A stretch of DNA of 34,983 nucleotides, from the NCBI GenBank assembly GCA_015232555.1, contig JADFZJ010000037.1:1-34983 (forward strand), given 5' to 3'. A program made the position numbers and the translations under genes. Under the pieces are notes generated by a model that was not told the DNA's origin, ran no database searches, and saw only the letters and a list, made by a program, of their open reading frames with translations. Numbering within the stretch: the first letter of the stretch is position 1; the number at the start of each line of letters is the position of its first letter. Below, in pieces: positions 14,293-34,983 of the stretch. The stretch is from Desulfamplus sp. (GTDB lineage Bacteria > Desulfobacterota > Desulfobacteria > Desulfobacterales > Desulfobacteraceae).

Positions 14293-15405
14293 ATGAATTG
14301 GGATTGGGATAAGCTCAGAGACAAGCAAGATCAGTATGAAAAAAGACGTGGCGATGGGGGAGGAATGGGGATGCCAACACCCCCACAGATTGATGAGATA
14401 GTATCAAAATTCAGGAATTTTAAACTTCCTGGTGGATTACTGATGATTCTTATTCTTTTATTTCTCTTCTTTGGAAGTTCAATGTTTTTCACCGTAGAGA
14501 TTGATGAAGTGGGAGTTATACAGAGATTTGGTAAATACAGCAGAATCTGTCAGCCAGGACTTAATTTTAAACTCCCTTCAGGGATTGAAAAGGTCACCAA
14601 GGTTAAAATTAAGAGAGTTTATAAGGAAGAATTTGGATTTACAACTGGTCAGGAAGATAGTGCATTCTCACGATTGAACGAGAATACAGACATGGTCGCA
14701 TCTATGCTGACAGGTGACTTGAATGTTGCTGTTGTACCGTGGATTGTGCAGTACAGAATATCTGATCCATACAACTATCTGTTCCGCGTTAGAGATGTGA
14801 ACGCAATCTTGCGTGACATGGCAGAAGCTACCATGCGTACAGTTGTAGGTGATAGAAGTATTAATGAGGTTATCTCAAAACGTGAGGAGATCGCTGTTGC
14901 TGCAAGAGAACTGCTTCAAATCGAGATGATTCAGGCAGAAACAGGGATACAGATAGTAACTATTGAGATGAAAAAAACTAATGTTCCAGAGCCTGTTCAA
15001 GCCTCATTTAATGAAGTTAATGAGGCAGTTCAAGAAAAAGAGCAGCTTATTTATAAAGCTAAAGAGGAGTATAATAAAGCTATTCCTGCCGCCAAAGGTG
15101 AAGCACAACGGATTGTAAAAGATGCTGAAGGTTATGCAATTGATCGTGTCAATCGTGCAATGGGTGATGCTGCAAGGTTTACATCTTTATATCAGGAGTA
15201 TTCTAAGGCAAAAGATGTAACTGAAAAACGACTTTATTTAGAGGCAATGTCAGAAATTTTACCTAAACTCGGCAAAAAATATGTTATTGATTCTGGGCAG
15301 ACAAATCTTTTACCTCTTTTGAATATGGGTGAAGCAGCAGGACAATCCCCAACAACAGTATCAGCAGTAAAAGATTTATTAAAGGGAGATGAGGTATTAA
15401 AATGA
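14293..15405 (+). CDS. hflK: HflK, FtsH-associated membrane protein
   Basis: This is the SPFH/prohibitin-family partner that with HflC forms a large cage around the FtsH protease in the inner membrane. The 370-residue protein has a Gly/Met-rich cytosolic N-terminus (RRGDGGGMGMPTPP). A single transmembrane helix spans about residues 47-67. The SPFH domain starts at VEIDEVGVIQRFGKYSRICQPGLNFKLP. The long C-terminal helix (PAAKGEAQRIVKDAEGYAIDRVNRA) is typical. RBS AGGGAA precedes the ATG. It overlaps hflC by 4 bp (ATGA), as expected for obligate partners. Confidence 0.95.
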   Translation: MNWDWDKLRDKQDQYEKRRGDGGGMGMPTPPQIDEIVSKFRNFKLPGGLLMILILLFLFFGSSMFFTVEIDEVGVIQRFGKYSRICQPGLNFKLPSGIEKVTKVKIKRVYKEEFGFTTGQEDSAFSRLNENTDMVASMLTGDLNVAVVPWIVQYRISDPYNYLFRVRDVNAILRDMAEATMRTVVGDRSINEVISKREEIAVAARELLQIEMIQAETGIQIVTIEMKKTNVPEPVQASFNEVNEAVQEKEQLIYKAKEEYNKAIPAAKGEAQRIVKDAEGYAIDRVNRAMGDAARFTSLYQEYSKAKDVTEKRLYLEAMSEILPKLGKKYVIDSGQTNLLPLLNMGEAAGQSPTTVSAVKDLLKGDEVLK

Positions 15406-16394
15406 TGAAATACAAGGGAATTATATATGTAGTACTGTTTTTGACAGCTTTTATTCTGTTTACATCAGCATATATTGTGGATGAGACAGAACAGGTTGTT
15501 ATTACACAGTTTGGAAAGGTTGTAGGTGATCCTGTAACAACGCCTGGTCTTAATTTTAAAGTGCCTTTTATTCAAAAAGCAAGCTATTTTCCTAAAAATC
15601 TTCAGGAGTGGGATGGAGATCCAGGACAGATACCTACAAAGGATAAAACCTTTATCTGGGTAGATACTTTTGCACGCTGGAAAATAGTCGATCCTATCAA
15701 ATATTTTCAGACTGTGAACAACATGACAAGTGCTCAAAGCAGGCTTGATGATATTATTGATCCCGCTGTCAGAAATTTTGTTACGTCATACAGACTTGTA
15801 GAAAGTGTCAGAAATAGCGACAGACCCATGGATACTTTCGAGTCTTTTGATGGAACTGAAAATAATCCGAGTCCAGACGTTCAGAATAAAGATGCCAAAG
15901 AACAGCCTCAAAAACATATATCACAGTATAAAATTGAAGTTGGAAGAAGTGAGATAAACAAAAAAATTATTGCTCAGGCACAGCCCAAATTAGAGGCGTT
16001 TGGAATTGAACTTGTAGATGTAAAGATAAAAAGGATTAATTACGTTGAGAAGGTGCGGGATGCTGTCTATGGCAGAATGATTGCCGAAAGAAAACAGATT
16101 GCAGAAAAATTCCGTTCTGAAGGCAGGGGAGAGGCAAGCAATATAAGGGGTGACAAGGAGAAGGAGTTGCAGCTTATAAAATCTCAAGCATATAAAACTG
16201 CTCAAGAGATTAAAGGTAAGGCGGACGCAAAGGCAACAGCGATATATGCCGATAGCTATGGAGTTGATCCTGGATTTTATTCACTTGTAAAAACTCTTGA
16301 TGTATATAAATCTGCACTTGATAAGAGCAGCACGCTGGTGATTTCAACTGAATCAGATTTTATGAAGTATTTCAAGGGAATCAAGGGTGAGTAA
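15402..16394 (+). CDS. hflC: HflC, FtsH-associated membrane protein
   Basis: This 330-residue SPFH protein has an N-terminal membrane anchor (~residues 6-25). It continues YIVDETEQVVITQFGKVVGDP and TPGLNFKVPFIQKASYF. The C-terminal helix includes RMIAERKQIAEKFRSEGRGEA, the region that packs against HflK. A hydrophilic stretch at about 145-170 (ENNPSPDVQNKDAKEQPQKH) is an insertion in the SPFH domain. The start codon overlaps the hflK stop. The stop codon touches the target-site duplication of the MITE inserted immediately behind the gene, so the native 3' untranslated region has been displaced but the protein is intact. Confidence 0.95.
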   Translation: MMKYKGIIYVVLFLTAFILFTSAYIVDETEQVVITQFGKVVGDPVTTPGLNFKVPFIQKASYFPKNLQEWDGDPGQIPTKDKTFIWVDTFARWKIVDPIKYFQTVNNMTSAQSRLDDIIDPAVRNFVTSYRLVESVRNSDRPMDTFESFDGTENNPSPDVQNKDAKEQPQKHISQYKIEVGRSEINKKIIAQAQPKLEAFGIELVDVKIKRINYVEKVRDAVYGRMIAERKQIAEKFRSEGRGEASNIRGDKEKELQLIKSQAYKTAQEIKGKADAKATAIYADSYGVDPGFYSLVKTLDVYKSALDKSSTLVISTESDFMKYFKGIKGE

Positions 16395-16400
16395 TATTTT

Positions 16401-16578
16401 GGTTCTCCGAGCTTTCCCGTGGTAGATATAATTTTTTATTTGTGATATAGGCCTCAGCTACTCTTCGTAACTATCTAAAATAATTACTAATATCTTAACA
16501 GCCTAAATTAGTGTCAATCAATGAACGCTATTAAAATTGGACAATTTTACTAAAAACCACGGAAAATATCAGAGAGCC
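16401..16578. mobile_element. 178-bp ISL3-type MITE
   Basis: Imperfect terminal inverted repeats of 22 bp lie at 16401-16422 (GGTTCTCCGAGCTTTCCCG...) and 16557-16578 (its complement reads GGCTCTCTGATATTTTCCG...). Both end in CCGTGG. The element is flanked by a perfect 8-bp direct repeat AATATTTT at 16393-16400 and 16579-16586, the duplication length known for the ISL3 family. The right terminus differs from the ISL3 terminus at 34805-34826 at only 2 of 22 positions, and the left at 4. The interior has no coding frame of note. It sits directly after hflC, its duplication overlapping the stop codon. Confidence 0.85.
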
Positions 16579-16620
16579 AATATTTTGTTATTCTCTTACA
16601 TAAAAGAGTAATTTATTCAT

Positions 16621-16674
16621 TTAGAAAAATAAAACCGCAACAGAAAATTTAAGATGATATTTTTCTGTTGCGGT
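16621..16674 (-). terminator. Intrinsic terminator of the bS22-like gene (possibly bidirectional)
   Basis: ACCGCAACAGAAAA (16634-16647) pairs perfectly with TTTTCTGTTGCGGT (16661-16674) across a 13-base loop. Read on the minus strand the stem is followed by TTTTATTTTT, a good U-tract, 68 bp after the small gene's stop. On the plus strand the U-tract is poorer, but it could also serve hflKC. Confidence 0.85.
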
Positions 16675-16741
16675 AGTTATTTTTACGGAATCAGGGAATT
16701 GATTTGTAGATACCGCTATTATAAATAAATATTCAATTCAG

Positions 16742-16834
16742 CTATTTGCGTCTTTGATGTCTTGTTCTTGCGAGGAGTTTTTTATGTTTATGCTTGCGCA
16801 TTTTTTTCCTTCTCTTTTTAATAACACTGCCCAA
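16742..16834 (-). CDS. AURKAIP1/COX24-domain (bS22-like) small ribosomal protein
   Basis: This 30-residue, extremely basic protein begins MGSVIKKRRKKMRKHK and ends ARTRHQRRK. It has almost the same sequence plan as mycobacterial ribosomal protein bS22 and the AURKAIP1/COX24-domain proteins of other bacteria (MGSVIKKRRKRM...KLLxRTRxQRR). The start is TTG, with an unusually strong Shine-Dalgarno AAGGAGG seven bases upstream, and an intrinsic terminator follows. In bS22-containing ribosomes the protein sits on the small subunit near the decoding region. It is divergent from the HExxH protein gene. It is easily missed because of its length and TTG start. Confidence 0.85.
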   Translation of the reverse strand: MGSVIKKRRKKMRKHKHKKLLARTRHQRRK

Positions 16835-16980
16835 AAGACCACCTCCTTTAATCAGTTTCCAAATGTTATATTAATGATGAATTCAAAACTTATATCATAA
16901 AGTTTTGTGATATGTCCATTCTTTTTTCTTGTATAAACCAAGCATACAAGAGTTTTCAATATCTACCACAGGAGCAATTT

Positions 16981-34586: not shown

Positions 34587-34804
34587 TTATGAGTTGAACT
34601 TTGTTGACAATAAAAACATAGTCGCTGCAATTTTGCCAAAGACATGTACCATCAAGCCTCTGAAAGAGCGAACTTTTGAAGCAACCTGAATACCTGTTTT
34701 TTCCTGAATCCAGTTGAATAAGGATTCAATGGGCTGTCGAACCTGACTGACCAAAGTAGATAAAGCTGACTCAAACAGCAACAATTCTTTTTGTCCTTTT
34801 TTCT
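34587..34804 (-). pseudogene. C-terminal part of a DDE transposase, interrupted by an ISL3 element
   Basis: On the minus strand the frame runs ...SQKKGQKELLLFESALSTL and then SQVRQPIESLFNWIQEKTG, ASKVRSFRGLMVHVFGKIAA, to TAA at 34587. The blocks RQPIESLFNWIxEKTGIQxASKVRS..GLxVHVFG are what I recall from IS4-type (DDE_Tnp_1-like) transposases. The reading frame is open up to the ISL3 terminus at 34805, where it is cut. Everything 5' of the cut is outside the window, so the gene is broken by insertion. Confidence 0.72.
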
Positions 34805-34983
34805 GGCTCTCAGAGATTTTCCGTGGTTGACAAGTGCCCTATTTTGTAATAAGAAGCTCAGCCCCAATGGTATCCAATAGTATTCGTTGTCTGAGATGTT
34901 GAATGTTAAATATCCCATAGCATCTTCGTTTTATAACCTTGATCTTATTATTCAATCCCTCCACAAAGCCGCTGTTACAGCGT
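34805..34983 (-). mobile_element. ISL3-family insertion sequence, 3' end (continues outside window)
   Basis: The element ends at a terminal repeat (34805-34826, plus strand GGCTCTCAGAGATTTTCCG followed by TGG). The C-terminus of an ISL3 transposase lies inside it. It disrupts the DDE transposase at 34587-34804. The other end is not in the window, so the 8-bp duplication cannot be tested; from this side it should read TTTTTTCT (34797-34804). Confidence 0.8.
34839..34982 (-). CDS. ISL3-family transposase, C-terminal 47 residues (partial)
   Basis: Read on the minus strand the frame gives NSGFVEGLNNKIKVIKRRCY, then GIFNIQHLRQRILLDTIG and stop TAG at 34839. The segment SxxxVEGLNNKIKxxKRRCYGxxNxxHLRQRI is the C-terminal hallmark of ISL3 transposases, and its Glu is the last residue of the DDE triad. 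The 5' part lies beyond the window edge. The stop lies 12 bp from the terminal repeat, which fits a complete end. Confidence 0.85.
   Translation of the reverse strand, partial: RCNSGFVEGLNNKIKVIKRRCYGIFNIQHLRQRILLDTIGAELLITK

Follow-up and report, generated by a model that had tools for sequence, protein, structure and literature searches.

A multicopy 178-bp MITE behind hflC in a Desulfamplus-type genome very probably belongs with the ISL3 family and is probably an internal-deletion derivative

MITEs are elements of under about 500 bp. In Microcystis aeruginosa PCC 7806, a 187-nt MITE that has GGCTCTTCG at its ends and duplicates 8 nt of target has been attributed, on grounds like those used here, to an ISL3-family transposase (PMC11448079), and ISL3, MITE and 8-bp also occur together in a second paper (PMC8615141). 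The ISL3 family (PF01610, NF033550) itself combines terminal inverted repeats with A/T-rich target duplications of 8 bp, features that it has in common with the MITE described here; ISL3 elements have a transposase gene, whereas this MITE has none. Our literature search found no paper combining Desulfamplus, a genus of magnetotactic sulfate reducers, with MITEs. By the description in PMC11448079, the Microcystis element is like the Desulfamplus one in several respects: both are near 180 bp long and lack a transposase, GGCTCT stands at the start of their ends (in our case of the right end), their duplications measure 8 nt, and their ends match ISL3 elements of the same genome. They differ in sequence and host, in copy number (31–33 identical copies there; six complete and three truncated ones in the present genome) and in the extent of the end match (9 nt compared with 18–20 of 22 positions here). 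Unlike the Microcystis MITE as described there, the Desulfamplus MITE has one arm in which the likeness to an ISL3 3′ end continues past the inverted repeat.

The window, by which we mean the whole stretch of DNA analysed (34,983 nucleotides), is contig C37 of an assembly of 106 contigs and 3.82 Mb. It contains the MITE just behind hflC and the right end of an ISL3-family element at its edge (Table 1). The element has the features by which MITEs are recognized, being short, non-coding and multicopy, with inverted repeats and a target-site duplication. A sequence-only reading had described the intact 8-bp duplication, the match of both MITE ends to the ISL3 terminus starting at 34805 and the sharing of two bases between the duplication and the hflC stop codon. 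All three descriptions hold; the stop codon TAA lies at 16392-16394 and is separated from the MITE by six bases.

Table 1 Features of the window around the MITE and the ISL3-family end (positions in the window)
Feature	Position	Strand	Details
hflC, FtsH protease modulator	15402..16394	+	TIGR01932, 285 bits
Target-site duplication, left	16393..16400	none	AATATTTT; opens with the final two bases of the hflC stop codon
MITE	16401..16578	+	178 bp; every one of the six frames has stops, no transposase gene; same-genome copies: six full, three at contig ends
Terminal inverted repeat, left	16401..16422	+	17/22 paired with right end; ISL3 right end 18/22, ISL3 left end 20/22
Left arm	16401..16484	+	resembles ISL3 3′ (transposase C-terminus) end; for bases 25-86, summed score against four ISL3 right ends reached by 0 of 1,000 and 0 of 2,000 shuffles
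Terminal inverted repeat, right	16557..16578	-	ISL3 right end 20/22, ISL3 left end 19/22
Target-site duplication, right	16579..16586	none	AATATTTT
Possible IS982-family transposase C-terminal remnant	34589..34804	-	NF033520 weak match, E=1e-4, 22 bits vs cut-off 130
ISL3-family element, right end, multicopy	34805..34983	-	cut by contig end; transposase C-terminus, PF01610 at 34881-34976

Full copies of the MITE lie on six contigs (C37, C24, C31, C29, C101 and C22), and three further copies, on C22, C71 and C66, are cut by contig ends. Identity to the window's MITE is 98–100%, except for one full copy (C22) at 91%. In line with the expectation of multiple copies with different duplications, five of the six full copies are bounded by perfect 8-bp repeats, all different (AATATTTT, ACTTTTTA, TCAAAATA, GAAAAATA and ATTTTTTT); the copy on C29 lacks a duplication (left flank GATAATTT, right flank AACTTTTT). 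The C101 copy terminates in GGC, not GCC, and only 11 bp separate it from an ISL3 end (C101:5363-5580, L005/L011). A partial match at C52, covering MITE bases 142–178 only, was rejected, with no partner end bearing a perfect 8-bp duplication in the locus. The C31 copy interrupts a gene and leaves it in two pieces. The C-terminal piece is matched in four of the nine other genomes of the genus; the three relatives that were read (G007, G008 and G001) have an uninterrupted frame with no insert, and the fourth (G002) has a stop within the match. The N-terminal piece, which is short in this genome, was matched by eye, and the gene may have decayed for other reasons as well.

No ISL3 other than the one at the window edge was seen in multiple copies in the genome. 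This element has two distinguishable ends, the left one seen on other contigs, and its right ends are mutually 97–99% alike over up to 185 bases. Clearly different ISL3 ends had been named as evidence against a relationship with the MITE; the genome's ISL3 ends instead agree with those of the MITE at 18–20 of 22 positions. PF01610 matches at four places, all of them C-terminal pieces; a single N-terminal piece lies where contig C46 ends (PF14690 above its cut-off, NF033550 at 45.5 bits against a full-length cut-off of 180). An ISL3 transposase gene assembled in full was not found in this genome, the assembly breaking inside the repeat; because contigs end inside both MITE and ISL3 repeats, these appear to be sites where this assembly breaks. 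Directly beside the window's ISL3 end, 34589-34804 has no Pfam match and, at E 0.001, resembles nothing else in this genome, and the ISL3 may have inserted into an older IS there.

The flanks of the multicopy ISL3 were compared for all 88 pairs of 8 left and 11 right ends, a count that leaves aside the C62 relic, a short match to the left end at C29:134211 and the end fragments on C69 and C52. Identical 8-mers were found in four contig-end pairs (C97/C87, C83/C20, C35/C49 and C21/C24), and one further pair matches at 7 of 8 positions; as many 8/8 pairs arise in 1 of 5,000 column shuffles. In agreement with the sequence-only reading, these pairs point to 8-bp duplications for the partner ISL3, and a related element in G010 is flanked by AAATTTCT. 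The matching flanks also suggest that the two contigs of each pair adjoin in the genome, with an ISL3 copy between them. For AGAAAAAA, the flank of the ISL3 end in the window, no partner was found among the flanks compared. Taken together, the nine duplications (five of the MITE, four of ISL3) consist of A or T at 67 of 72 bases, compared with 62% A+T in the window. The left flank of the left ISL3 end on C46 (L021) is AATATTTT, the same 8-mer as in the MITE duplication behind hflC, which probably reflects a common preference for A/T-rich targets.

Related ISL3 elements occur in several relatives. The G010 element has a PF01610 match and its perfect duplication, and its transposase, spread over two overlapping frames, is probably incomplete. 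The related transposase of G008 scores above the cut-offs of both NF033550 and PF01610, and C62 of the present genome holds the decayed remains of a G008-like ISL3, with N- and C-terminal pieces close together. When 30 loci in relatives were scanned for paired ends in a search for complete ISL3 elements, perfect 8-bp duplications were found at L110/L054 (one G010 element) and L121 (G057). An ISL3 candidate with unrelated ends, L102 (G002), has 25 of 25 paired end positions and flanks agreeing at only 2 of 8; flanks at L104 agree at 4 of 8, and the remaining scanned loci gave no pair under the pattern used. L104 lies on G033:C1, from the same family, a single contig with 39 PF01610 matches, most of them equal in score, which looks like an ISL3 burst. 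At E 1e-4 the MITE itself has matches in 3 of the 389 genomes searched within the order, its own genome included; plasmid and phage collections gave none at E 1e-5. Its counterpart in G028 is 178 bp long with the duplication AATTCATA (only one full-length copy was found using its own sequence), and a MITE-like element in G004 is 169 bp long and has no duplication.

To place the arms of the MITE, we used anchored alignments past the inverted repeat (bases 25–86 for the left arm) and counted the shuffles reaching the observed score. For the left-arm interior against ISL3 right ends, these were 0 of 1,000 for G008, 1 for the C62 relic, 2 for G010 and 118 for the present multicopy ISL3; the summed score against the four right ends was reached by none of 1,000 shuffles, and that against two left ends by 951. 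A repeat with 2,000 shuffles gave 0, 0 and 1 for the G008, C62 and G010 types, 225 for the present ISL3 and 0 for the sum of four, and unanchored local alignment of the left arm gave 1, 2 and 278 of 500 for G008, G010 and the genome's own ISL3. The present ISL3 is thus at chance level in all three comparisons, and the left arm fits the G008/G010 type, of which only a relic was seen in this genome, better. The likeness extends to about base 84 and is to ISL3 3′ ends, not 5′ ends. No ISL3-end likeness was detectable in the right-arm interior (right ends 481, left ends 298 of 1,000 shuffles), and derivation of this arm from an ISL3 left end was discarded, with no alignment signal. From the one arm that can be placed, the MITE probably arose from an ISL3 element by internal deletion.

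The MITEs of relatives have the same orientation of likeness in their left arms, with summed scores reached by 3 of 1,000 shuffles against right ends and 988 against left ends for G028, and by 0 and 339 for G004. By ISL3 type, the counts per 1,000 were 0 (present ISL3), 0 (G010), 2 (G008) and 5 (C62) for G004, and 10, 9, 16 and 34 in the same order for G028, so that neither MITE singles out an ISL3 type. In a weaker local test, the ISL3 left end likewise gave a score with the left arm of G004 (22 of 500). Their right arms gave nothing firm past the inverted repeat (right and left ends, 46 and 912 per 1,000 for G028; 106 and 943 for G004).

These data bear on which ISL3 element made the MITE and which moves it. 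The sequence-only reading had cast the MITE as a passenger of the transposase at the window edge; the common ends speak for this, and the better fit of the left arm to another ISL3 type speaks against it, leaving movement by that transposase plausible. One possible history, which we rate at less than an even chance, makes the window-edge ISL3 both parent and present mover. It is, after all, the sole multicopy ISL3 seen, its ends agree with those of the MITE, within-genome identity is similar for its right ends and for all MITE copies apart from the 91% one, and the left arms of the G004 and G028 MITEs match it as well as any type; the left-arm interior of the window's own MITE, however, prefers G008, G010 and the C62 relic. 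It is also conceivable, though short of an even chance, that the MITE outlived its parent, an ISL3 of the G008/G010 type now reduced here to the C62 relic, and moves through the transposase of a diverged cousin with which it shares little beyond the inverted repeat. The G004 and G028 MITEs make this history less likely, as they do not prefer the G008/G010 type over the present ISL3. Whichever ISL3 was involved, the MITE is very probably a non-autonomous ISL3-family element, most likely derived by internal deletion and most likely moved by a borrowed ISL3 transposase.

The site behind hflC was compared across relatives. Among MAGs named Desulfamplus sp., seven have hflC proteins 82–87% identical to the one in the window and an eighth has one at 65%; for D. 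magnetovallimortis the value is 78%. These identities place the host in or near Desulfamplus. We inspected 10 of 28 hflC loci (seven of the eight Desulfamplus sp.-named MAGs, D. magnetovallimortis and two others), with up to 180 bases of downstream DNA, or 250 for the seven Desulfamplus sp. and only 29 in L067. The insert is absent from 7 of 7 Desulfamplus sp. loci, and likewise from D. magnetovallimortis and two more distant genera. The DNA behind hflC has diverged among relatives, so absence is judged by position; of the predicted empty site in relatives, the missing insert was found and an exact single AATATTTT was not. The MITE sits between the hflC stop codon and an inverted repeat, CCGCAACAG...CTGTTGCGG, at 16635-16673. 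This repeat is exact in five of the seven Desulfamplus sp. loci and has one base changed in L091 (L067 ends earlier), and it may be a terminator.

Could the element instead be an immobile regulatory or RNA element kept behind hflC for its function? Its RNA folds better than shuffles (z -3.38), with an outer stem formed by the terminal inverted repeats. Nevertheless, its copies adjoin unrelated genes, one of them lying within a gene, it is missing behind hflC in the relatives examined, and in 16300-16950 Rfam gives no hit at E 0.1, promoter-like sites are about as many as expected by chance (4 compared with a mean of 3.0) and there is no terminator-like site. We consider such a role very unlikely.

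The MITE was the sole match in the window to a structural scan for elements of 80–600 bp whose flanks form a perfect 8-bp direct repeat and whose ends pair at 14 or more of 22 positions; the best result from 20 dinucleotide-shuffled windows was 16 of 22, in one of the 20, so structure by itself puts the MITE only moderately above chance. Its reality is settled because other copies have the same borders: although that one shuffled window paired 16 of 22 positions beside a perfect 8-bp repeat, six full copies with identical borders in one genome refute a chance coincidence of inverted and direct repeats in A/T-rich DNA.

We propose that an ISL3 element lost its interior to become the MITE, whose left arm of about 84 bp still resembles an ISL3 3′ end, and that the MITE would retain both ends recognized by ISL3 transposase. 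Supplied in trans, this transposase would insert it at A/T-rich 8-bp targets, duplicating them. One such insertion would have struck the very end of hflC, at the final two bases of its stop codon; since insertion duplicates the target, neither this codon nor the protein would have changed, and the MITE would simply have joined the DNA behind hflC. Here the transposase source, the chemistry of transposition and the neutrality of the hflC insertion are what we infer. With an ISL3-attributed MITE already known from Microcystis, the MITE is real but ordinary. What it contributes is an ISL3-type MITE family from a Desulfamplus-type genome; related elements occur in a second species of the genus and in a second genus of the family. 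It also provides a case in which one arm is traceable, probably through internal deletion, to the 3′ end of an element of the parental type.
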